Below the pieces are notes generated by a model. The model was not told the origin of the DNA and did not search any database. It saw only the letters and a program-made list of their open reading frames with translations. A program made the translations under genes and the position numbers. From a virus, in the IMG/VR virus record IMGVR_UViG_3300020109_000040, positions 1-45,515 of that record: a stretch of DNA of 45,515 nt, one strand, 5' to 3'. This document shows positions 10,872 to 29,703 of this stretch, piece by piece. The stretch's first letter is position 1, and each line of letters starts with the position of its first letter.

Positions 10872-12425
10872 CTACCCGAAGATGACGCGGCGACCTAAAT
10901 CACCCTCGATCCGATGCTGCCGAATGCCCGGATGGCTCGCGGCATTCGCAAGGCAGTAATCGGTGGCTACGATGCCCATCGATCCCATCCCTGCGCCATA
11001 GCTCACGAGCGTCGGATCAATGAAGGCGGCGGTCCGTCCGCCCCAGCCCGGCGTCATCGCCGCCTGCCGCAGGACGCGATTCACGGTCAGGAAATCGGTG
11101 ACGTCGGACCCGATGTCATTGGGTCGACTGCATCCCCATACGATCACGCCTTTCGCGCCGCCGCTATATTTGGCGTCGATCAACTGGCGGATTCGATTGA
11201 AAAGCAAGGTCACGCCCACGTTGCGGCTGTTCATTCCGTCTAGGATAATGCCGAGGTCAGAGCCGTCCTGTGCCCATGCGGCGAGGCGGGCCGGGTCGGT
11301 CATGCCATCGGGGCTATCGTCAGAATTCGTCCCCGCCACAGAATAATTGCGGTAAGTGACGGGGCCCGCACATGCCGCGACAAGCTCCCACATTCGCCCG
11401 AAATGCGTATGCACCGGGCCCGCACCATCGCCATGGTCGTAATCGTCTCGGACCGCATCGATCAGTGACGGTGCGATTATACCTTCGCGCAAATAGCCGT
11501 AGGTCGCACCTGCCGCCGTAGCCCGGTCGCGATACGGACCATCAGGCACCGTGAGGCTCGGCTCCTCACTCTGGATAGCGGAGATGCTGTCGCCATTGGA
11601 GCTCCAGACAGTCCCCTGTCCCGCCTCTACCATTTGCAGAAATGGACGGATCGCTTCGCGGTTGCGCCGCAGATCGGCTGCAACCTGAGCTTCATATTCC
11701 CGCGCGATCCCATCGCGAATATTCCAAAGCTTGACCAAGTCGACCCTGTCCCCTGCCGTGCGGGCATGGAACAGCGGCATTCGCATCGGAATGCTCGATT
11801 GGCCGTTCTTGGTGCCGGTCGTCGGTATCCGCTCGGCCGCATCGCGGATGCCGACGCCACCCGGCACTTTGTAAAGGACATGAAATTCGGGGTCGCAGCA
11901 AATAAGATCGTAGCGCTCTTCGGACCCGGTATAGCTGATCCGCACAGCGCGATCGGGACCAGCGGATTTGAGTGCGAGAGCACCAAGCTTCCTGTCCAGA
12001 ATATAGTCGACGGACTCTGCCAGGACGGCACCGCTGGCGACATCTGTCACCGTGATCTGCGTCACATTACCATAAGCCAAGCGTGCCGGCAGATACGACC
12101 AATAGCCTTGGCCGTTGACGAACGTGAGCGTGTGCGGCTCGTCCACGATCACATGCGATGCAGTCGCATCCAGCGTGACCGATCCGCCAAAAGGTACGAC
12201 CCCATCATAGCGAGCGATCCTGCCATCGCCGATACTCACGGTCCGCCCAGCGACGATGGGTGTCGCGGCGACCACCTCGTCGAAGGCACGCACGCCGATC
12301 GAAGCCGCCTCTGCCCGGTCTGCCGCCGCTTGCGCACGCACGGCCTGCCGCGCCGCCTCCGCCTCAGCGTCACCCCGCTCCACAACAAAGGCCTTTCCGA
12401 CCGTCTTCACGATGATGTCCGCCAT
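10872..12425 (-). CDS. SGNH-hydrolase tail fibre protein
   Basis: A 517-residue protein. The N-terminal 45 residues are an Ala-rich helix typical of tail-attached proteins; a beta-rich middle follows. The C-terminal half is an SGNH/GDSL hydrolase: block I SNGDS (nucleophile Ser 280), block II Gly 365 (SVAGTN), block III Asn 399 (DGMNS), block V His 498 (SHPG). The Asp usually three residues before the His is Ala here, so a Ser-His dyad may do the work. It probably de-esterifies surface polysaccharide during adsorption. End of the tail operon, where receptor-acting enzymes usually sit. Confidence 0.75.
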   Translation of the reverse strand: MADIIVKTVGKAFVVERGDAEAEAARQAVRAQAAADRAEAASIGVRAFDEVVAATPIVAGRTVSIGDGRIARYDGVVPFGGSVTLDATASHVIVDEPHTLTFVNGQGYWSYLPARLAYGNVTQITVTDVASGAVLAESVDYILDRKLGALALKSAGPDRAVRISYTGSEERYDLICCDPEFHVLYKVPGGVGIRDAAERIPTTGTKNGQSSIPMRMPLFHARTAGDRVDLVKLWNIRDGIAREYEAQVAADLRRNREAIRPFLQMVEAGQGTVWSSNGDSISAIQSEEPSLTVPDGPYRDRATAAGATYGYLREGIIAPSLIDAVRDDYDHGDGAGPVHTHFGRMWELVAACAGPVTYRNYSVAGTNSDDSPDGMTDPARLAAWAQDGSDLGIILDGMNSRNVGVTLLFNRIRQLIDAKYSGGAKGVIVWGCSRPNDIGSDVTDFLTVNRVLRQAAMTPGWGGRTAAFIDPTLVSYGAGMGSMGIVATDYCLANAASHPGIRQHRIEGDLGRRVIFG

Positions 12426-12823: not shown

Positions 12824-13733
12824 TGTTGAGACGCAGCAACCAGTTATCGAACGAATAGCTGGTCAGTGCGGTTATTGCGGGGAGTGTAAGATCGACCGTA
12901 AGCTCGCGCACCTTGGTCGCCCATGCCGCCTGAACGATGTACCCGGCCGGCGGCGGGGCCTTCGGGATCAATAGCAGCGGCGCGCCGATCGGGAGGTCGA
13001 AAGTGGTCGTGATCACGCGGCGACGGACGCCAGCGCTCACCGATAGCAGGTTGCTTTCCGAGAGCGTTACGGAACCGAGCAGGGTCGTGGCTGGTGCGCC
13101 AGCGGCGCCAACCGGCACGCCAAGGTTCAGCTTCGGCGCCCCCGCCGTGCCCGAAAGACTGGCGGTCGCCGGCGATCCCGCGGCGAGCGTCGTGACCGTC
13201 CCGACCGACAGGACAGGCGACACGCCATCGGCACCTTTCAGCGTAGCCAGCCATTGCGCCTCGGTCCCGCCGTAGCCGCCGTCTCGCGCTAACTGATAGG
13301 CGGACCTTCCCGCTGGCCCGACCAGCGTCGTCAGCCATTGCGCTTCCGTTCCACCGTAGCCCGCAGCGCGGGCAATCTGGTAAGCTGATGCCCCGTTCAC
13401 GCCGTCACGCGGCGCCGGCAAGGTGAAGTCGAAAACTGCGGCGCTTTCCGAGCCGCTGTTCACGACTTTTGGTGCCGACCCTACCGGGCCGGAGATGACC
13501 GCACCGGCCCTGATCGTCGCATCCTTGCCCTTCATCGCAGGATTCTGGGTCGGATCGCTGACGAGCAGCATCGAGAACGGCTGCCCCATCGGCATCACGC
13601 CGCGCGACAGCAGGACCAGCAGCGGTTCATCATAGGCGGGTGGGGTTAAGGAGGCGTGAAGCTTCGCCATCCCCTGCCCCGGATAGCTCATCCGAATGTA
13701 GATCCGCTGAAGGCGGGGCGTGGTTTCCCTCAT
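12816..13733 (-). CDS. Tail fibre-like protein with GYGGTEAQWL repeats
   Basis: A 305-residue protein. Residues about 78-110 resemble the beta-rich connector of tail fibres (VNSGSESAAVFDFTLPAPRDG). Two copies of a 21-residue unit, SAYQ(I/L)AR..GYGGTEAQWL.TL, lie at 116-136 and 144-165. Collagen-like GAP/GAPA turns follow near 195-215. These EAQWL modules are a known feature of fibre and fibre-adaptor proteins. The C-terminal 80 residues form a distinct beta domain, possibly receptor- or fibre-binding. Confidence 0.75.
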   Translation of the reverse strand: MRETTPRLQRIYIRMSYPGQGMAKLHASLTPPAYDEPLLVLLSRGVMPMGQPFSMLLVSDPTQNPAMKGKDATIRAGAVISGPVGSAPKVVNSGSESAAVFDFTLPAPRDGVNGASAYQIARAAGYGGTEAQWLTTLVGPAGRSAYQLARDGGYGGTEAQWLATLKGADGVSPVLSVGTVTTLAAGSPATASLSGTAGAPKLNLGVPVGAAGAPATTLLGSVTLSESNLLSVSAGVRRRVITTTFDLPIGAPLLLIPKAPPPAGYIVQAAWATKVRELTVDLTLPAITALTSYSFDNWLLRLNNG

Positions 13734-16015
13734 ACCGCCTCCTGCGCCAGTTTGTTGTGGCTGATGAGGCGTCGTCCTGCGTCGTCGACCAGCACATAGG
13801 TTGCGGCGTCGGCAACGGTCAGCGCGACGACCCGGCCGCTACCGGCGGGATTGCCGAGCACGTCAGACCGCGACCAGCCCTGATCCCACCACAGATGCGA
13901 CGGGGAGGTGAGTGGCCGATTGCCAACAGCATAGAGCGGGCTGTCGAACACGCGAGTGAAGGTGACGAGATACGCGCCCCACTTACCGGTCCCGAGGTCC
14001 GCTTCACGCTGTGACCAGACCCACATGCCTGCTTCGATCTTGCCGGCTTCGATCGTTTCACCGGGGCCAGTACGGTCGGCATTCGCAAGTAGGATGCGCG
14101 CGGTAATGATCGGGCATCCACCGCCGCCATAACCGCCGCCATTGTCGCCGCCCGGAGCCGTTGGGTAGGTCGGATAGGTGCCGTCAGCATTCGAGGTCGT
14201 CGTCTCGCGGATGATGACGTAGCGGTCCGATGCGACCTCGTTGAGTGCCGGCGACGACACTGCGGCGAAGGTAGAATTGTCCAAATCCCACAGCACAAGA
14301 TAAGTCGAAGCCGCCGTCAGGCCGGTGATCGTCTGCGCCGGAAACGTCAGCACCCGACCATCATCGATCGTCGCTTCAAATGCCTCGATCGTGATCGTCG
14401 TGTCGTCGCTGTCGACCGGATACGCCACCGACTGCCGGACGATAAGATGCGCAGCTCGGGTCGAAGGGGGCAGCGAATAGTTGCCGGGCACGTCTGGCCG
14501 GTCCACGCCCGGCACCGGCGGCAGCGTCCCCGTACGTGCGAAAACGCGGCCATGTTTCGTCGGGTCTTCGGTCCGCATGGTCATCGGCACCATCCCCGTT
14601 GCAGGATCGAGCGAGCGCTTCAGCAGGATCATCTGCTTGCCAGCCAGCCCGCGCACCCCATCGTCGATTTTGACACAGTCGCCAGCCTTGAAGCCGAGCC
14701 ACCGCAGCTTGAGCGGCATCGTGATTGGCCCAGCCTCGCGCGCGTTTTCCAGATCGTAGCCGGCAAGCTCGACCGTCTGCGACACGTCCGACCCGCCCTC
14801 GACCTGCACCAATCCGTAGGGGACTTCCTTCGTCCGCTCGCCGCCGTCCTTGGCGAGCATTGCCGTGTCGCGCACGACATCGCCAGGGATCACCTCCCAC
14901 CAGTGCGCCTCGCTGCGGAACGTCGGGATGATGCCGTTGATCCGATCGCGGCGCGGCTGAGTCTTCGGCGCGTTGATTTCGCCCACGATATCGTCGCGCG
15001 TGATAGTCGCGATCGGCACGCGGGGCGCATTGACCATGCAGGAGAGCGTTGCGCCGTCCTTGATTGGCTCGCCACCACCCGCTTGCAGGATCGACTTCAG
15101 CACCTGCCACTTGTCATCGCCGGTCGATACCTCGCCGCCGCAGGTCCAGCCATTGAAGTCGGCGATGTTTGCGCCCTCGACATAACGGGCCACGTCGATG
15201 CTGCGGATATCGATCCCGACGCCAGCGACGCGTACGCCGTTCGCCTTCCACCCGATCGCCCACGTCAGGCCGACGACGTACGGGTTTTTGCTGAAGCCCC
15301 AGGTCGACTGATCGAACCACCGTTGCGGACCGCTGCCGCCGGGATAGGTGTCGTCCTTGCGCGGATCGTAGCAACGGACTCCCCGTGTGACCCAGAGCAT
15401 GTTCGGCTCGGTCATGAAGGTGCCCTTACCCTTGCTGTCGTAGCGAAGGGTCGTCTGCACCGCCGCGAGACCGGACAGCTTGTGCGACGCGCTCCAACCG
15501 GGCTTATTGCCCACGCCGGTGTTCAAGGCGTTCGGTTCAGGCGTCAGGCCAAGCTGGCGGACCTCCCACAGCCAGCCCGCGAAAGGCGCGGTCGCTGCGG
15601 CGCCGCTGAAGAATAGTTGCTTCTTGTCGGCATAGCTGCCCTCGATCGCATCGATCGGCCCGGCACCTGACAGGACGGTGGTCAGCGTCTGGTACTGGTT
15701 CTTGTCAGCCTCGCCACTGCCCTTGCGGTAGACGATTTGCCCTGCGCCACCGGTGCGCCCGAAACGAATCGGGATCGCGGCACGTGGATCTGCCGACCAA
15801 TCGGTTTGCGTGCCGCCGCCGGTCGCGCCACCTGCCCCTGACTGTAGCAGCGACGCGCCTAGAGATGCACCAATCGCGATCGCCGCAACCGCGGTCGCGC
15901 TCAACGCCACGCCAGTACCGGCCAGCACGCCCACGGCCAGCAGCGACGTGCCGCCAGAAGGTATCGCAGCCGCCACCGCAATGACGGTAGCAGCGATCTT
16001 CGCGACATGTCCCAT
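13730..16015 (-). CDS. Tail tip attachment protein with C-terminal Hint domain
   Basis: A 761-residue tail tip/central fibre protein (gpJ-like role). Residues 4-55 are strongly hydrophobic. The middle carries the beta-rich tip domains (WVTRGVRCYDPRKD, then ELAGYDLENAREAGPITMPLKL in part). After a Gly-rich linker, residues 634-754 look like a Hint (intein/hedgehog) domain: Cys 634 (GGGGCPIITARILL), IEAGMWVWS, SPSHLWW with His 707, a TYVLVDD strand and final SHN with His 753-Asn 754. Only seven residues follow, and the +1 residue is Lys. This is closest to bacterial intein-like domains. Tail role by position and content; autoprocessing is inference. Confidence 0.8.
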   Translation of the reverse strand: MGHVAKIAATVIAVAAAIPSGGTSLLAVGVLAGTGVALSATAVAAIAIGASLGASLLQSGAGGATGGGTQTDWSADPRAAIPIRFGRTGGAGQIVYRKGSGEADKNQYQTLTTVLSGAGPIDAIEGSYADKKQLFFSGAAATAPFAGWLWEVRQLGLTPEPNALNTGVGNKPGWSASHKLSGLAAVQTTLRYDSKGKGTFMTEPNMLWVTRGVRCYDPRKDDTYPGGSGPQRWFDQSTWGFSKNPYVVGLTWAIGWKANGVRVAGVGIDIRSIDVARYVEGANIADFNGWTCGGEVSTGDDKWQVLKSILQAGGGEPIKDGATLSCMVNAPRVPIATITRDDIVGEINAPKTQPRRDRINGIIPTFRSEAHWWEVIPGDVVRDTAMLAKDGGERTKEVPYGLVQVEGGSDVSQTVELAGYDLENAREAGPITMPLKLRWLGFKAGDCVKIDDGVRGLAGKQMILLKRSLDPATGMVPMTMRTEDPTKHGRVFARTGTLPPVPGVDRPDVPGNYSLPPSTRAAHLIVRQSVAYPVDSDDTTITIEAFEATIDDGRVLTFPAQTITGLTAASTYLVLWDLDNSTFAAVSSPALNEVASDRYVIIRETTTSNADGTYPTYPTAPGGDNGGGYGGGGCPIITARILLANADRTGPGETIEAGKIEAGMWVWSQREADLGTGKWGAYLVTFTRVFDSPLYAVGNRPLTSPSHLWWDQGWSRSDVLGNPAGSGRVVALTVADAATYVLVDDAGRRLISHNKLAQEAV

Positions 16016-22551: not shown

Positions 22552-22871
22552 CACGCAGCCCGCGTAGCCGTAATATCCCGTCCCTCGCGCCCATACGGCA
22601 CGCTGCTGACGATATCCCAGACGCCCAGATCAAAGCTGATCCGATCCAACGGACCAATCGATCGCGCGTCGTCGCTGTCACGAATGCGGAAGGTGGCCGA
22701 CAGCGTCGCACTCTCCTGTGCCGCGACCCGACGTTCGTTGCCCGTACCGTAATTCACCGCGGCCCATTCGGTGACGAACGGCGTCCAGGTCTCAACCTCG
22801 CCACCATATCCATCGCTCTCGACCGTCTTGCGCTCGATCTGTATCAACCACCGACGATTGCCGGCCTTCAT
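22551..22871 (-). CDS. Head-tail joining protein (head closure type)
   Basis: One hundred six residues from ATG 22871, overlapping the previous stop. The motif LIQIERKTVESDGYGGEVETW, then TEWAAVNYG and a beta-rich C-terminus (DRISFDLGVWDIVSSV), belongs to the SPP1 gp16/HK97 head-closure family (Phage_H_T_join). It closes the portal-connector channel after packaging. A longer frame upstream is an Arg-rich out-of-frame read of the neighbouring gene. Confidence 0.85.
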   Translation of the reverse strand: MKAGNRRWLIQIERKTVESDGYGGEVETWTPFVTEWAAVNYGTGNERRVAAQESATLSATFRIRDSDDARSIGPLDRISFDLGVWDIVSSVPYGREGRDITATRAA

Positions 22872-23338
22872 ACCAGCACCCGGCGATAGCGATCGATCAG
22901 CGCCGCAACGCCGAAGGGCAGGGGAGTGGCCCCCTCTGCGGTTGCCTCGCGGTTCGCATCCCAATTCCCGGCGAGCAGGAGCGCGGCGACGAGCAAATCC
23001 TTCGGCACCTGCTCCGGATCGGAATAGCCCGCCTGGTAGACGGCGACCGCGTTGCAAGGGTACCGGCGGGAGACCCGGCCGCGCACGATCGTCGCCACCT
23101 CGCTTTGCACGCCGGCCGCATCTGACCATTCGATTGCCACGTCTCCTTCGACGGGCCCGAAGCTCAGGAAGTCGAGCCCGTAAAGCGGCTGCCGCACCTC
23201 ACGCCGCGCGAATAGCTGCCCGGTCTGACCCTCGATGTGCTCGACCGCCGCGCCGAGCATCGCGTCGAGGATCACGTCCTCATCGGCGTGCCGGACGCGA
23301 ATCCAGTTCTTGAGCAGGTCGAGCGTCAGGGCGGTCAC
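22868..23338 (-). CDS. Head-tail connector, gp6-like
   Basis: One hundred fifty-six residues. LDLLKNWIRVRHADEDVILDAMLGAAVEHIEG is the helical start of HK97 gp6/phiSPP1 gp15-type connectors, with a beta segment in the middle and a C-terminal helix (LIDRYRRVL). It forms the ring beneath the portal. Fits the conserved order connector, head closure, gp10-like, DUF3168. Confidence 0.87.
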   Translation of the reverse strand: MTALTLDLLKNWIRVRHADEDVILDAMLGAAVEHIEGQTGQLFARREVRQPLYGLDFLSFGPVEGDVAIEWSDAAGVQSEVATIVRGRVSRRYPCNAVAVYQAGYSDPEQVPKDLLVAALLLAGNWDANREATAEGATPLPFGVAALIDRYRRVLV

Positions 23339-24297
23339 GCGACGACCACCTCATACTCGACAACATGCGTCACCGACTGACCCGGAGCGAGCGTGGCACG
23401 CGGGAACACCGCCTGCACGACCTCATCGGCGGTGCGGGACACACCGACCTCGCGACGCGTGCCGATGTTCGGTGCCTTGTCGTAGGTCGTGACGTGGATC
23501 TCGGCACCCGGCGCGCGGATCACCAGCTTGCCGCCCTTCACCGAGCACTCGACCACGCCCGCCGACACGACCTTGTTCGTGGTGTTGAAGGCGTCCGCTT
23601 GGTCCGGGTCGATCGAGCGGAACAACTGCACATCGATCGGCGCGCCGGAGGCATTGCGCAGCGTCATCGCGAGGCGGATCGCCTTGCCAGACATGCTGAC
23701 GCTCTGCGCCACCTCGACGCTCGACACGCCACCTTCCCACGTTACGGGATCGGTGAAGCCACCGGGGACCTGGTTGTAGCCGGTCAGCAGCATGTTGGCG
23801 TAGCGCTTGCCCCCGATCATCAGGCCGAAGCCCTCAATTGCGCGGCCTTGCAGGACCAGATCGTCGAGCGGCGGGACGAACATGCCGATGCGCGCGAGGC
23901 CGCTCGCCTTGTCGCTGCGATAACCGGTGGGCGACGTGTTCGCCGACGTGCCGATACCGCCCGCCGGGTTGAAGCCGACCGTCATGTCCACCGTTTGCAG
24001 GTAGCTGTTGCCGTTCTGGATGCCGGCGGTTAGGTTGGCGCTTGCTGGCGGCGTGGGTGTGGGCGCTGGCGTGGGCGTCGGGGTCGGGGCCGGAGTGGGC
24101 GTCGGGGCGGGCGTCGGTCCCGGCGCAGGCACCTTCGCCGGTTCCACGTCGGTATAGGTGAAGTCCGGCGCGCCCTTCACCAGCCACCAGTTGCCGGTGC
24201 TGGGTAGCCCGTACTTCTTGGCACCCGCAGCGGATACCTTGATGACGCCATCGTTGTTGCTGTCGGGGATGGCCTTCTTGAGCGTTACCGTGGTCAT
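23335..24297 (-). CDS. Virion surface protein with Pro-Thr linker
   Basis: A 320-residue protein between the capsid and connector genes. Residues 1-52 are a small N-terminal domain (VTLKKAIPDSNNDGVIKVSA, NWWLVKG), about 53-85 are a PAPTPTP linker, and 90-320 are a beta-rich domain ending in VTHVVEYEVVVA. The linker is shared with the 947-residue neighbour, so both are probably displayed on the virion, perhaps as capsid decorations. The linker DNA is an imperfect GGCGTG-type repeat, prone to slippage. No named family for the C-terminal domain. Confidence 0.65.
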   Translation of the reverse strand: MTTVTLKKAIPDSNNDGVIKVSAAGAKKYGLPSTGNWWLVKGAPDFTYTDVEPAKVPAPGPTPAPTPTPAPTPTPTPAPTPTPPASANLTAGIQNGNSYLQTVDMTVGFNPAGGIGTSANTSPTGYRSDKASGLARIGMFVPPLDDLVLQGRAIEGFGLMIGGKRYANMLLTGYNQVPGGFTDPVTWEGGVSSVEVAQSVSMSGKAIRLAMTLRNASGAPIDVQLFRSIDPDQADAFNTTNKVVSAGVVECSVKGGKLVIRAPGAEIHVTTYDKAPNIGTRREVGVSRTADEVVQAVFPRATLAPGQSVTHVVEYEVVVA

Positions 24298-24309
24298 GGG
24301 GTGCTCCCG

Positions 24310-27153
24310 TTAGCTGATCTGGGTTGCGGTGATGGGTCCGACGAAGCCGATACCGGTGTTCGCGGCACTGGTCGCCGCGACGTGCCAAAGATCGACCGAA
24401 CCAACCTGCATTTGCTTGCTGGCGGAGGTGTCCTTGAATTGGAGCGCCACCGCGCCATTCACTTCCAACGTCAGTTCCGGGCATGGCGTGGGGTCGGTAT
24501 CGCTGGTCGGAACGTCGCGGACTTGGAAAGCCCAAGAAACGACATGCGCAACCGGTATGTTGTAAGCGAATGTCGACGTTAGCGTGTTCGTTCCAGCATT
24601 CCGGCGTTCAAGGCGGAAGCCCTTGTCGTTTGCCGAATACAGCATCGCATAGCCGTCATCGTTCACACCGGGCGTGGCACGAAGCATGACGCGCAACGAG
24701 TTTTGAACGCTGTCGCTATCCCGACGAATCTTACCTTCAACCCGGTAGTTAGCGGTGGGTGGCGTGGCCGGAATGGCGACGCGGCGCTGCTGCCCGGTGC
24801 AGTACGTCTTGCCGTTCGGGGCAATGAAGATCTGACCCGACGTTCCGCTGACGGTTTTTTGGATGTATTCCCCATCAGCTGGCGTGTTCGTCTTATGACC
24901 GCCCGGAGCCAGAACTTCGGCAGTAGAAACGGAAAGGTTATCAACAAAGAACGGTGCGACGTTCTGGTTGATCGTGACTTTCTTGGTTTCGGTCCGCGAT
25001 GCAGGCGTAAGGCCAGCCTTGTCCTGCTTGATCGTATAGTTGAGGTCGACGCCGACATTTGCCGGGGTCCATTTGCCCGATCCGCTCGACAGGTCCACGA
25101 CCTGACCGCCCGGCGAAGTGAAGGTGATGGTAGAGCCGGCCGACCGGTTCGTGACCGTGATCGTGGTTTCGACGCCCTGCTTTGGCGCGGGGTTGAAGGC
25201 AACGTTCAACTGGCGGAGGTAATCGGGTACGACGTAGCCAGTGTCAGCCACCAGAATGGCCAACATGCTCATCCACAAGTCATTGACCGTGGTGTTGGTC
25301 GAAACCGGGCTTTCGCCTGCCAGCAACAGGTTCGCTTGGCCGATCGCAGCATCAATCGCGGCTTGGTCAGGTAGCAGGCCGCCGACTTGAAGGTCGCGGA
25401 ACCCGGTGTTGACGATAGCTCGCTGCGCCGCCGAAAGCGTGATGGTAGCCTGTGCCAGCCATTGGGTCATGGCAGGTTCGGGCAGGACGCCAGCGATCCC
25501 CGCGCCGCCATTGATGAACTCGATGCGAGCGCCCGTGATCTGGTCATATTCGGTGATGTCGCGGGTGCGCTGTATCCAAATCGGCGTGTCCGCTGCGCCA
25601 TTGAACGCGATCGACGGGCGAACGACGTTGTCATACAGCGTCGAACCAGAAGTGATACGGGTAGACGTCCAAACAGTGCCTTCTGCGTTGCCGTCCCAGC
25701 GCTCGAATACCCAGCGTTCGGCTTGACCGCCCGGCGCGTGGCTCGACGGGTAATCGAACTTGACGGCCCGTGCGGCATAGAAGCGGTTCGGCTGCGTAAG
25801 ATCGTACACGATGCCCGGAGGCGCATTGAACGACCCATAAGCAAGGCGCGCCCCGATATTATACAGCGGCGTTTTGGTGTAGGACGCACCGTTATATCGA
25901 TCCTCAGGCGTCGGGCATTGCCAGAACTCGACCTGCGTATCGGGCAGGTTGGATTTGTTGATGAGATAGACAGCGAAGCGGTCGCCGCGTTCGTCAAAAT
26001 TCTGAATGTCCACGACCCGTCCCGATGGCGGAACCGTAACGTCGCCCAAATCTTCGATATCGAACGGAAGAACCTTTCCGTTCGCCGACGCCGAACCCAA
26101 CCGACCGAGCGCGCCGCCCCCGTGGCTGAACTCCATGGTGGCGCAATCGAATTCGAACAGCTTCAGGCCCTTGCCGAAAACCTCGTCCGTCGACAGGTAT
26201 TCGGCGTAACCATAGAACTTGTGCTTGGCCTTGTTGAAGCGAACCAGTCCATAGACCTTGGTGCTGCCAGTGCCGCGCGTGTTGATGATATATGGGAATT
26301 CTTCAGTGAAAGTCTGACCACGATCGTCAGAATAACGCATTACATACTGCGTATCCGAGATACGATAGTTCAGCCAAACACGATCGTTCTTATCAACAAA
26401 TACACCCGGATAAGTCGTGTTACCGCCTGCTACAAGAGTAGTGAGCTTAGACCATGTTCCGTCTGGAGCACGATAATCGATGATTACACGTGCGTTATTA
26501 TTGTGACCCATCGACACCCACAATTCCGCACCGTCGCTGAATGGCGAGCCGGACGGGATATTGTGGTCGTCCATCTGGAACGACGTGTTGGTCGTGCGCT
26601 CGACAACCGCCGTGCCAGCGGCATAGTCCATCGCGTAAACGACCTGATTGCCGTTCGCCAGCACCGCACCAAGCGCCACGACCTTGCCGCCACCCGCGCG
26701 TAAATGGCCGGACGGGTAGCAGATATGATTGCCGGTAATGCCGGGAACATGGGCGGGCAGCACGTATCCCGGTGTCGGCGTAGGCGTAGGCGTCGGCCCC
26801 GGGGTGGGGGTGGGGGTGACTGCCGCGGCGGTCGTCACGGTGAACGCGCGTACCTTGCCGTCGATCGTCGCGGTCGCGGTTGTCGCCGTGCCGTTGCTCC
26901 CCGACGACGTGACGCGCAGGCGCAGGGTGTCACCGTCGCTAACGGTCGTCGCTGCGTTCGAATAGGCCGCGCCGTTCTTGGAATAGGAGCCGCCGCTGAT
27001 CGTCAGCGGCACACCGTTGCCGATGTTGCGCAACGTGACGACGTTGCTCTCGATCGCGCTCGACAGCGCGGCGCCAGTGACGGGCAGGAAGCCGCCGCCA
27101 ATGACCACGGCAACAGTCCGGTTGAGCCGGGCGCGGAGTCTCGAAATTGCCAT
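24310..27153 (-). CDS. Large BNR-4 propeller protein in capsid cluster
   Basis: A 947-residue protein. Residues 1-110 form an Ig-like beta domain; 113-128 are a TPTPTPGP linker; about 140-500 look like a BNR-4-type beta-propeller: MDDHNIPSGSPFSDG and WVSMGHNN, a pair of family hallmarks, plus an Asp-box SDDRGQTF (275-282). A helical segment (590-640) and another Ig-like unit with NRSAGSTITF come next, and the last 200 residues resemble a concanavalin-like lectin fold. Such propellers bind or cleave polysaccharides. Its position between major capsid and connector genes suggests a head-borne adhesin. Enzymatic activity is not established. Confidence 0.7.
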   Translation of the reverse strand: MAISRLRARLNRTVAVVIGGGFLPVTGAALSSAIESNVVTLRNIGNGVPLTISGGSYSKNGAAYSNAATTVSDGDTLRLRVTSSGSNGTATTATATIDGKVRAFTVTTAAAVTPTPTPGPTPTPTPTPGYVLPAHVPGITGNHICYPSGHLRAGGGKVVALGAVLANGNQVVYAMDYAAGTAVVERTTNTSFQMDDHNIPSGSPFSDGAELWVSMGHNNNARVIIDYRAPDGTWSKLTTLVAGGNTTYPGVFVDKNDRVWLNYRISDTQYVMRYSDDRGQTFTEEFPYIINTRGTGSTKVYGLVRFNKAKHKFYGYAEYLSTDEVFGKGLKLFEFDCATMEFSHGGGALGRLGSASANGKVLPFDIEDLGDVTVPPSGRVVDIQNFDERGDRFAVYLINKSNLPDTQVEFWQCPTPEDRYNGASYTKTPLYNIGARLAYGSFNAPPGIVYDLTQPNRFYAARAVKFDYPSSHAPGGQAERWVFERWDGNAEGTVWTSTRITSGSTLYDNVVRPSIAFNGAADTPIWIQRTRDITEYDQITGARIEFINGGAGIAGVLPEPAMTQWLAQATITLSAAQRAIVNTGFRDLQVGGLLPDQAAIDAAIGQANLLLAGESPVSTNTTVNDLWMSMLAILVADTGYVVPDYLRQLNVAFNPAPKQGVETTITVTNRSAGSTITFTSPGGQVVDLSSGSGKWTPANVGVDLNYTIKQDKAGLTPASRTETKKVTINQNVAPFFVDNLSVSTAEVLAPGGHKTNTPADGEYIQKTVSGTSGQIFIAPNGKTYCTGQQRRVAIPATPPTANYRVEGKIRRDSDSVQNSLRVMLRATPGVNDDGYAMLYSANDKGFRLERRNAGTNTLTSTFAYNIPVAHVVSWAFQVRDVPTSDTDPTPCPELTLEVNGAVALQFKDTSASKQMQVGSVDLWHVAATSAANTGIGFVGPITATQIS

Positions 27154-27160
27154 GGATTTT

Positions 27161-27198
27161 CCCGCTGAAAAGAGCGGGCCGCCACATCAGCAGCGGCC
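27161..27198 (-). other. Two overlapping hairpins ahead of the 947-residue gene
   Basis: CCCGCT (27161-27166)/AGCGGG (27173-27178) and GGCCGC (27177-27182)/GCGGCC (27193-27198) are perfect inverted repeats sharing two bases, so the RNA structures compete at their edge. The first lies just before the start codon. They may limit translation or stabilise a processed transcript; there is no T-run for termination. Confidence 0.35.
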
Positions 27199-27217
27199 CA
27201 GGTAGAGAGGGTGGCGA

Positions 27218-27502
27218 TCAGCCGTTCAGGTTCGCCGCGACCGCTTCCTCGTCGGTCGCGGTCGGATCGTTGAAGTCGATCCGGTTCGAGATGACCGGCT
27301 GACCGGCGCGCGGCGAATTGTCGACGGCCGGGTGATCGGTATCGATCCGCTCAACGATCGTCGGCTCGATGAACGCGCCGGATGCGGCCATATCGGTTGC
27401 CGGTTCCAGCTGGTCGACCTGCGCCATCGAGGTATCGGCGGCGCCGGGGGTGTCCGACAGCTTCACGTCGCTGGTATCGACGCTGTTCTTACGTGCAGCC
27501 AT
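27218..27502 (-). CDS. Small acidic protein downstream of major capsid
   Basis: Ninety-four residues, Asp/Ala/Thr-rich, with no hydrophobic core evident and probably mostly unfolded (TSDVKLSDTPGAADTSM, PAVDNSPRAGQP). ATG 27502 follows AAGGACAG. Sits in the head gene cluster between the major capsid and the propeller protein; could be a minor decoration or accessory protein. No family recognised. Confidence 0.6.
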   Translation of the reverse strand: MAARKNSVDTSDVKLSDTPGAADTSMAQVDQLEPATDMAASGAFIEPTIVERIDTDHPAVDNSPRAGQPVISNRIDFNDPTATDEEAVAANLNG

Positions 27503-27532
27503 GGGGCTGTCCTTTCCGTACGAGGGGGAAGG

Positions 27533-27555
27533 GCGGGGCGCACACGGCGCCCCGC
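27533..27555 (-). terminator. GC hairpin after the major capsid gene
   Basis: GCGGGGCGC (27533-27541) pairs perfectly over 9 bases with GCGCCCCGC (27547-27555) around a 5-base loop, only 2 bases beyond the capsid stop codon. The downstream tract on the transcribed strand is CCTTCCCCC, with few T residues, so full termination is doubtful. A partial terminator or 3' stabiliser would give more capsid mRNA than downstream mRNA. Confidence 0.5.
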
Positions 27556-27557
27556 GG

Positions 27558-28817
27558 TTACGCTGCGACCTTGAGCGCGCGCATCGGCTCGGGGTTCTTC
27601 ACACCGCCGCCGACGCGCTTGGTGGTGTAGAAGTGGACGAACGGCTTGTTCGTGTACGGGTCGCGCAGCACGCGAACGCCGGTCCGGTCGACGACCTGGT
27701 ACGTGGCCGCCATGTCGCCATAGAGCGCCGCGATGTTGCCGGCGGCGACGCTCGGCATGCCGGGAATGTCCGCGATCGGTACGCCTGCGATCGTCGAAGG
27801 CTGGCCCGCCTCATAGCTCGGCTGCCAGATATAGTTGTTGCCGGCGTCCTTCAGCTTGCGCAGTTCGCGGACGCTGCCACGGTTGATGAACAGACGCGCA
27901 TTGCCCTCGAACTCGACCGGAAGGTCATACACGAGGTTGAGCACGCCATCGGTGGTCAGCTTATCGGCCGCCCCGGTGGTGACGACCTTGATCGCGCCGA
28001 ACGGATGGCGGGTCGCGAAGGTGCCGCCTTCGACATAGGTCAGGATGCCGTGCGGCTTGTTGTTGCCGTCGCCGGACAGGAAAGCGATCCCTTCCTGCCG
28101 ATCGAACTCGGTACTCACCTCGTCAGCGAGCCACGCCTCGATATCGACCTCGGCGTCGTCGATCAGACCCTGGCTGGCCGCCGGGTTGGCGTAAAGTTCG
28201 CCCAGCGGGAAGTCGAGCGAGGTCAGGCCGGGCGTGGTGGTCGCCGGGCGCGCGGCGGTCTCGCCGACCCAGCCCGAACCGACGACGCGGTCCGAGAAGA
28301 CCTTCTTGAAGCCGGCGCCGCTGATCGAGATGACCGACGCATAGTTGCGGATCGCCGAGACCTGCTTCAGTCGCTTCGTGATCGACCGGTCCCATTCGAT
28401 CGGTGCGAGGTAACCGCCTTCACCGTCGGTCTTGGTCGCGGCCGCGCGGATCTCTTCCATCTTCGCGGTTGCCTCGCCGCGCTTGAAATACGCTTCGAAC
28501 TCTTTGGTCGCCTCGGCGTCCCGGGGGGCGGGCTTGCCGTCATCGGATAGCAGTTTTGCCGCGATGTTGCGGTTCAGGTCGTCGAGCGCGGACTGCAGCT
28601 TGTCGACTTCGCCGTTGATGCGATCGACCTTCTCGTTCGTCACGACGTCGGTCTTGCCGGCCTTGATGTCGTTCAGCTGCTCGGTGTGAGCGGTCTTGAA
28701 CGCTTCGAACGCAACGGCGAGGTCGTCGAAAGTGGCGGGCTTCTTTGCTTCGGCGCGAACGGCGACGAGGCCCCGCACCGGCGCGGTCGAGCCGCGCAGG
28801 CTGGTCATCATGTTCAT
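27558..28817 (-). CDS. Major capsid protein, HK97 fold
   Basis: A 419-residue major capsid protein. Residues about 25-100 are the helical delta/scaffold domain (DKLQSALDDLNRNIAAKL) that the prohead protease would remove; the mature shell part begins near residue 105-125. EGGYLAPIEWDRSI, then LYANPAASQGLIDDAEVDIEAW and FDRQEGIAFLSGDG, are classic HK97-type segments. Final residues VHFYTTKRVGGGVKNPEP match the family C-terminus. Follows protease and portal as in HK97. Delta domain processing is inferred from the family. Confidence 0.95.
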   Translation of the reverse strand: MNMMTSLRGSTAPVRGLVAVRAEAKKPATFDDLAVAFEAFKTAHTEQLNDIKAGKTDVVTNEKVDRINGEVDKLQSALDDLNRNIAAKLLSDDGKPAPRDAEATKEFEAYFKRGEATAKMEEIRAAATKTDGEGGYLAPIEWDRSITKRLKQVSAIRNYASVISISGAGFKKVFSDRVVGSGWVGETAARPATTTPGLTSLDFPLGELYANPAASQGLIDDAEVDIEAWLADEVSTEFDRQEGIAFLSGDGNNKPHGILTYVEGGTFATRHPFGAIKVVTTGAADKLTTDGVLNLVYDLPVEFEGNARLFINRGSVRELRKLKDAGNNYIWQPSYEAGQPSTIAGVPIADIPGMPSVAAGNIAALYGDMAATYQVVDRTGVRVLRDPYTNKPFVHFYTTKRVGGGVKNPEPMRALKVAA

Positions 28818-28827
28818 GTCTGTTCCT

Positions 28828-29703
28828 TCAGACTTTTAGGGCGGAGAAGAGCCGCGACGGGTCGCCGCGCTCCGGGTCGTCGCCAGCGCGAGGCGTGGCA
28901 GGGTCGGGATCGGCAGCGGTCCGCGTGCCTTCCCCCATCGCGCGAAACAGGTCGCGCCGCTGCGATCGCGGCATGTTCTGTTTCGCGAGAAAGCGGTCAA
29001 GGGTCGCCTTGTCGGTCGGGAAGTCGCCCGCCTCGGCATAGACGGGCATTTGCGCGTCCCGCTCCATCAGCGTGTCGGCGAGACCCGCGTCGATGGCTTC
29101 CTGCCCCCGGAAATAGACGTCCTTGCCGGCGATCATGGCGGCGAACTCTTCCGCCGGCCGGCCCGATCGCGCGGCATAGGTGGTGACCATGCTATCGTCG
29201 ATGTGCTGCAACGTCGCGACGGCGTCGGCCATCTCCGACTTCGTGCCGATGAACACGCCGGTCGCTTCGTGAATCATGATTTCGGCATTGTGTGCGATCG
29301 CGATCGTGTCGCCGGCCATGGCAATGACCGATGCTGCGGACGCGGCGATCCCGAGGATTTCGACATGCACGGCCTGCGTGTGACGCCGAAGGAGGTTGTA
29401 GATGGCGACGCCTTCGAAATAGTTGCCGCCCGGCGAGTTCATCTCGACCTTGATCGGCTTGTCCCCGATCGAGCGCAGCGCCGCGGCGATACGCTTGGTG
29501 GTGACGCCGCCGCCCTCACCATCATCACCGATATAGTCGAAGATCGACACGGTCGGCATATCCGACGCCAGTGCAGTGACTTCGAAATGCCGAAAATCCT
29601 CGGCGAGCGCCTTCATCTCGAACTGCCACCCGGTGCCGCCGCCGACGCCTGTAATTTCCGGTGGACGGCCCGCATAGACCGCCATCAAACCGCGCTTACG
29701 CAT
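28828..29703 (-). CDS. ClpP-type prohead maturation protease
   Basis: A 291-residue ClpP-fold serine protease. VEMNSPGGNYFEG (87-98) is the oxyanion-hole segment, GIAASAAS (119-126) holds the nucleophile Ser 122, and EIMIHEATG (141-149) holds the catalytic His 145. It would cleave the delta domain of the capsid protein made by the next gene. The C-terminal 60 residues are acidic and Pro-rich, probably a scaffold-like tail. Overlaps the portal stop by 8 bases. Confidence 0.93.
   Translation of the reverse strand: MRKRGLMAVYAGRPPEITGVGGGTGWQFEMKALAEDFRHFEVTALASDMPTVSIFDYIGDDGEGGGVTTKRIAAALRSIGDKPIKVEMNSPGGNYFEGVAIYNLLRRHTQAVHVEILGIAASAASVIAMAGDTIAIAHNAEIMIHEATGVFIGTKSEMADAVATLQHIDDSMVTTYAARSGRPAEEFAAMIAGKDVYFRGQEAIDAGLADTLMERDAQMPVYAEAGDFPTDKATLDRFLAKQNMPRSQRRDLFRAMGEGTRTAADPDPATPRAGDDPERGDPSRLFSALKV

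Follow-up and report, generated by a model that had tools for sequence, protein, structure and literature searches.

P947, a 947-residue protein encoded in the head module of the phage studied here, is likely to be a late virion protein that acts on glycans, and we put at about one half the probability that it is a spike or fibre of the virion, attached most likely to the head, carrying an anchor at its N-terminus and turning a domain of the PL24/25 type toward host polysaccharide. Attachment to the head is favoured by the position of the gene in its operon, by the spike-type content of the corresponding slot in related prophages, and by a domain of P947 that is linked to spikes elsewhere.

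Gene order and domain layout

The window, by which we mean the whole stretch of DNA analysed, spans all 45,515 bases of a virus record. The preliminary description had placed a protein of 947 residues between the genes for the major capsid protein and the head-tail connector, and both points are borne out: the open reading frame runs from an ATG to its own stop without an internal stop, and family matches identify the neighbours on both sides (Table 1). The genes are transcribed in the order TerL, portal, ClpP-type protease, HK97 major capsid protein, p94, P947, p320, and head-tail connector, where capsid, protease, and connector were named by family match and TerL and portal by eye; the interval between capsid and connector holds p94 and p320 in addition to P947. 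Of 80 capsid relatives, 75 have a portal homologue in this position. In Burkholderia phage Bcep176, whose capsid protein is 52% identical, a single small gene of 165 bases separates capsid from connector; compared with cultured phages whose capsids are related, P947 and p320 are additional genes. Relatives of p320 were looked for and none was found.

Table 1. Features in and around the P947 gene (positions in the window)
Feature	Position	Strand	Basis or remark
HK97-fold major capsid protein	27558..28817	minus	Phage_capsid 5.6e-72; phrog_10
p94, small protein 3′ of capsid gene	27218..27502	minus	94 residues; conserved there in 68/80 viral relatives
GC-rich hairpin, terminator-like, in the p94-P947 gap	27175..27200	minus	sequence
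P947 (P0001), 947 residues	24310..27153	minus	putative anchor, then Ig-like domain, Pro/Thr linker, BNR_4/PL24-25-like propeller, and more beta-rich domains
Proposed virion anchor, N-terminal ~21 residues, MAISRLRARLNRTVAVVIGGG	27091..27153	minus	conserved in L002; function proposed
Ig-like domain, residues 22-110	26824..27090	minus	recurs in 6/396 Sphingomonadales genomes, in 3 beside a spike-base gene
Pro/Thr-rich linker, about residues 113-129	26767..26817	minus	sequence
BNR_4/PL24-PL25-like propeller region, residues 131-560	25474..26763	minus	detectable homology only about residues 167-325
Catalytic-type motif D195-x-H197 ... H217 ... T-Y248 ... R264	26362..26571	minus	BNR_4 alignment
C-terminal beta-rich region, residues 736-947 (lectin-like in the preliminary description)	24313..24948	minus	no family match
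p320, second cargo protein, 320 residues	23335..24297	minus	PTP linker between a small N-terminal part and a beta-rich domain (by eye)
Head-tail connector (Ad1/gp6-like)	22868..23338	minus	Phage_connect_1 5.9e-9; phrog_40

The phage looks temperate, since the record encodes an S24 repressor (2.4e-18) and a protein with an integrase-like match just below the cut-off (8.9e-6). Its capsid relatives in sequenced genomes are nearly all alphaproteobacterial, many of them from Sphingomonadales, and we would take it for a temperate siphovirus whose host is an alphaproteobacterium and probably belongs to the sphingomonads.

Two other proteins, both from the tail region of the window, may be recorded here. 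The last ~130 residues (13730-14200) of a J/TipJ-like tail protein of 761 residues (13730-16015) resemble by eye a Hint/intein-type domain, with Cys at the start and His-Asn near the end; Pfam gave no match within that stretch. A 517-residue protein (10872-12425) shows by eye a GDS-like motif, perhaps that of an SGNH-type esterase, has weak family matches only, and is possibly a tail receptor-binding protein.

The propeller-like region and its catalytic-type residues

The suggestion of a BNR-4-like propeller has gained support from the sequence. P947 matches the Pfam family BNR_4 (PF15892) with an E value of 7.4e-4 and 19.4 bits, short of the curated cut-off of 27.3 bits, yet it stands above every decoy when scored with a local BNR_4 profile, which we built from 19 domains (16 from genome searches and three from phage records). 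The test set of ~5,500 sequences comprised P947, its reversal, 2,000 shuffles, 1,773 open reading frames of at least 300 residues (P947 among them), and the reversals of these frames; P947 was best with 19.7 bits, and the runner-up reached 5.8 bits. In the PDB, BNR_4 profiles lead to structures of PL25, PL24, L-rhamnose-glucuronate lyase, and related proteins. Over the second half of the propeller there was no alignment to BNR_4 domains, and AlphaFold2, run on the single sequence without relatives, returned pLDDT values of 33.8 for the whole protein and 33.4 for the domain, too low for a usable model.

Alignment with the PL25 structure 5uam sets H197, H217, Y248, and R264 of P947 at the places of His123, His143, Tyr188, and Arg204 (the chain numbering of 5uam has an offset of 24, checked by 5uas, which has Asn at the His123 place). 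P947 has, in other words, counterparts of the PL25 catalytic residues His123, Tyr188, and Arg204 and of His143 as well, and its His-His spacing of 20 and Tyr-Arg spacing of 16 are identical to those of 5uam. In PL25, the base is Tyr188, the acid is His123, and Arg204 is the neutraliser (PMC8377490). The motif is found in 17 of the 19 BNR_4 domains, in two of the 2000 shuffles, and in one other among the 1773 long open reading frames. Because the PL25 catalytic residues are conserved, catalysis by P947 is favoured, and a glycan-acting protein of PL24/25-like type is the supported reading of its sequence. Set beside the seven-bladed BNR_4 propellers of PL24, PL25, PL42, and GH145, P947 has in common with the PL25 protein PLSV_3936 the catalytic-type His, His, Tyr, and Arg at equal within-pair spacings; it differs from the group in scoring below the family cut-off, in aligning by its first half alone, and in embedding the domain in a 947-residue multidomain phage protein.

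The same residues bear on whether P947 could be a head-displayed adhesin without catalysis, its lyase-like propeller kept for binding only, as in the head fibre of RcGTA. Head-borne glycan binding is established for RcGTA, whose head fibres bind capsule (PMC10218006, PMC7296036); certain BNR_4-type GH145 proteins are reported to lack activity owing to the loss of a residue (PMC8377490), and P947 has Trp at a place where ten BNR_4 domains all have His. Pure binding, however, would not need all four PL25 catalytic or active-site positions to be kept with their within-pair spacings equal, and we think an adhesin of this kind improbable.

Phage-encoded BNR_4-type domains, as in P947, are found in the Klebsiella phages MY01 (a tail spike), RothC, and RothD (hypothetical proteins). 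The MY01 protein is annotated as a tail spike and that of RothD lies near a tail-spike gene, whereas P947 occupies a head slot; the RothD and MY01 loci (L203, L204) place such domains in tail-region proteins of these phages. We found no BNR_4-type lyase in a head slot in the open-access literature. After the propeller region of P947 come, by eye, a helical stretch and then beta-rich C-terminal parts, for which there were no matches; nothing obtained speaks for or against the lectin-like end first described. Searches by six exact peptides, in which relatives are easily missed, gave no relative of P947 in phages, none in viral contigs (whole protein, propeller, and C-terminus), none of the propeller or of the C-terminus in 396 Sphingomonadales genomes each, and none in 398 genomes of the phylum; a plasmid search gave a single partial match, to residues 22-80.

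The capsid-connector slot and its spike-type contents

The junction between capsid and connector genes is a variable slot in related prophages. From 80 viral and 80 genome loci with related capsids, removal of 12 duplicates and of 10 loci without a detectable connector left 138 gaps: 115 of at most 600 bp, one of 600-900 bp, 19 above 900 bp, and three negative ones that reflect over-long or misplaced reading frames (the connector call in L178 is doubtful). The cargo of the 19 large slots, ten proteins of which were run against Pfam, includes laminin-G (L002; weak in L154), a sialic-acid-type acetylesterase (L180, 4.6e-16), and an S74 chaperone (L161), as well as, by eye, collagen-like proteins (L054, L124) and HNH-like genes (L004, L025, L063). 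P947 had been proposed to be a head-displayed adhesin or glycan lyase in a rare arrangement. Action on glycans, as indicated by the PL24/25 catalytic residues, and the head-module slot with its spike-type occupants in related prophages speak for the proposal; the rarity is unsupported, in view of the appreciable minority of relatives whose slot encodes large surface-type proteins and of head-borne adhesins or enzymes known from RcGTA, from HFTV1 with its enzyme-like capsid turrets (PMC12494034), and from phage 7-7-1 with its vertex fibres (PMC12796354).

The spike-type occupants are of two sorts. In L015, whose major capsid protein is 63% identical, the slot encodes a 222-residue protein (L015:11640-12305) with the RcGTA spike-base domain NF048002 fused at its C-terminus (E 4.5e-10, 39.7-41 bits, cut-off 28). 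RcapMu gp58 matches the slot proteins of L169 (42% over 138 residues, 8e-23) and L146 (41% over 66 residues, 1e-5), and gp57, directly before gp58, belongs to NF048002 (5.3e-21). One RcapMu gene, for which the passage gives no number, matches rcc01080, the RcGTA head-spike fibre (PMC8601537); we take it to be gp58. A spike-base profile made from five sequences (L231, L233, L234, RcapMu, and RcapNL) matches the PDB entry 'Head spike base Rcc01079' (2.8e-24); against 230 other loci it matched L015 (also numbered L235) and otherwise nothing but the sequences from which it was built (RcapMu, RcapNL, and, as L228, the L233 region). No NF048002 protein was found in the window or in the contig of L002, and among 14 records searched only that of L015 has one, so P947 would attach by another partner.

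That absence counts against a head spike, as does the lack, at the N-terminus of P947, of the Leu-Gly repeat seen in RcGTA and RcapNL. Gene position, moreover, is a weak guide to location, since the RcGTA spike genes lie outside the structural cluster and the spike-base genes of RcapMu and RcapNL stand at the tail end of their late genes. The latter point would suit a fibre attached to neck or tail, the slot beside the connector then encoding parts of the head-tail joint or tail appendages and not capsid ones. The cargo of L161 and L178 resembles tail-fibre proteins (L178 by eye), with the S74 chaperone in L161, and a 94-residue family that lies beside the large slot proteins of six loci (L141, L146, L153, L154, L161, and L180), before the connector, matches PDB 8jou chain D, 'Virion-associated phage protein' (4.8e-8), which we take to be the fibre-tail adaptor of phage GP4. 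P947 does not adjoin this family, however, and no domain library searched recognised a tail-attachment domain in it; the slot protein of L015 has the base domain of RcGTA, whose spikes sit on capsid pentamers. We regard a neck or tail fibre as unlikely.

Two parts of P947 itself bear on attachment to the head. Its first 21 residues are basic and then hydrophobic or Gly, and the nearest relative, L002 (capsid 76% identical), has a slot protein of 679 residues with the same start point, MARSALRTRLNRTVAVVVGLGGGG. The two bodies diverge after ~20 residues (an 83-column local match, 39.8%, E 1.3e-4), that of L002 being unrelated to that of P947 and ending in laminin-G. Two degenerate anchor patterns, run over all viral contigs, met the right context only in the L002 contig; 20 of the 21 matches to the shorter pattern were unrelated, and the longer pattern had one match. 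From this one pair, the N-terminus would look like a retained attachment peptide with a swapped payload. The conserved stretch VAVVIGGGF / VAVVVGLGG resembles, without repeating, the IALGLGLGL of RcGTA. We do not regard a five-point-star anchor as in RcGTA as shown: a motif scan of the major capsid protein loci for an anchor of the RcGTA type gave no convincing case, the window has no base homologue, and in 149 Paracoccus-family genomes the RcGTA-type peptide had no N-terminal match (a match anywhere in 12 of 149, with 5 for the backwards control).

The second part is the Ig-like domain. Of the Ig-like parts described at first, residues 22-110 hold up as a recurring domain, to which Pfam gives no Ig name. 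In L231, L233, and L234 an NF048002 gene lies directly upstream of the gene that bears this domain (E 1e-27 to 4e-30), with glycosyltransferase-like genes nearby (by eye). The domain comes late in these fibres and not at the N-terminus; two of the fibres begin MGRFGFGFGAGM and MPRLGLGFPAGR, resembling the RcGTA anchor peptide I-A-L-G-L-G-L-G-L (PMC7296036) and RcapNL gp30 (MGLGLGIGLGL). The domain is thus an accessory of spike fibres like these, though not exclusively: the other three loci with the domain (L230, L232, and L236) have no spike-base gene, and a Thiothrix glycosyl hydrolase matches it as well. L231, L233, and L234, in which spike-base genes are followed by large multidomain fibres, are possible head-spike loci of gene transfer agents.

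We suggest tentatively, at slightly less than even odds, that in this group of alphaproteobacterial prophages the junction serves as a slot for cassettes that encode interchangeable appendages of the head, in which a short conserved anchor stays and whole ecto-modules are swapped (the PL-type propeller, other enzyme-like bodies, esterase, laminin-G, and spike-base and RcapMu gp58-like domains), and that the head of this phage displays an active polysaccharide lyase, so that capsule would be attacked at a second site in addition to the tail.

Expression, known head spikes, and a proposed role

P947 is part of the morphogenesis operon, on the same strand as the head genes and coupled to them, because the stop of p320 overlaps the connector start (GTGA), with P947, p320, and connector closely packed, and no promoter-like site was found on the minus strand over 23000-29000. 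The hairpin between p94 and P947 may lower downstream expression. Hairpins of differing sequence follow p94 in many capsid relatives, whether cargo is present or absent; the hairpin therefore belongs to the capsid unit, and we rejected it as the mark of a cassette. As a recurrent GC-rich element after p94, it may serve as an attenuator located between the capsid gene and the connector gene. GC3 is 0.85 over residues 1-130 of P947, 0.67 over 131-560, and 0.71 over 561-947, compared with 0.86 for the capsid gene and p320; since the tape measure (0.73) and one tail gene (0.70) are likewise low, the split hints, short of proof, at a separate acquisition of the enzyme part. It is very unlikely that P947 is a moron, made and secreted by the lysogen for capsule remodelling or exclusion and acting outside the virion: temperate life, the hairpin, the deviating codon usage of the propeller, and a basic then hydrophobic N-terminus readable as a signal peptide would fit, but the gene is coupled to the head genes, such hairpins occur without cargo, and the N-terminus matches residue by residue that of L002, which runs into GGGGS and not into a signal cleavage region (read from the sequence by eye).

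The closest parallel to a head-attached P947 is the head spike of RcGTA, with its base Rcc01079 (GhsA) and fibre Rcc01080 (GhsB). Like RcGTA, the phage would form an HK97-type particle from an alphaproteobacterium, and P947, like the RcGTA fibre, would be an N-terminally anchored, glycan-facing protein; the slot of the capsid relative L015 holds a protein with the base domain, and the Ig-like domain of P947 recurs in spike-base cassettes near polysaccharide-type genes. By their numbers, the capsule genes rcc01081-01086 of R. capsulatus come next after its spike genes rcc01079-01080 (PMC10218006, PMC8601537). RcGTA differs in having a separate base protein, of which none was found in this window, in a fibre of 325 residues with the I-A-L-G-L-G-L-G-L anchor, for which the passages mention no lyase domain, and in spike genes that lie away from the capsid cluster, whereas the P947 gene is within the head module. 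The turrets of HFTV1, built of a TBP hexamer and a THP trimer with galactose-binding-like and deacetylase-like domains, are likened to P947 by description: enzyme-like and carbohydrate-binding-like domains are displayed on the head and proposed to make first contact. HFTV1 is an archaeal virus, however, and has a deacetylase-like fold and a hexamer-based turret.

In the mechanism that we infer for P947, from virion membership, head location, and anchor function to catalysis and substrate, the first ~20 residues would fix the protein to the particle, and the Ig-like domain and Pro/Thr linker would form a flexible stalk. The propeller would bind, and probably cleave by beta-elimination, a uronic-acid-containing capsule or exopolysaccharide of the host, with His197 and Tyr248 as the acid-base pair and Arg264 as charge neutraliser, by analogy with PL25, while the C-terminal domains may add glycan binding. 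P947 might thereby provide a reversible first contact with the capsule, or passage through it, before the tail engages.

Should P947 prove to be an active enzyme on the head, the degradation of capsule would not have to be a function of the tail, and the host specificity of these phages could shift by the swap of a single cassette in the head operon. Such a role would connect phage heads with the head spikes of gene transfer agents. It would also offer a clear, testable place in which to search for capsule depolymerases overlooked by annotation that centres on the tail.
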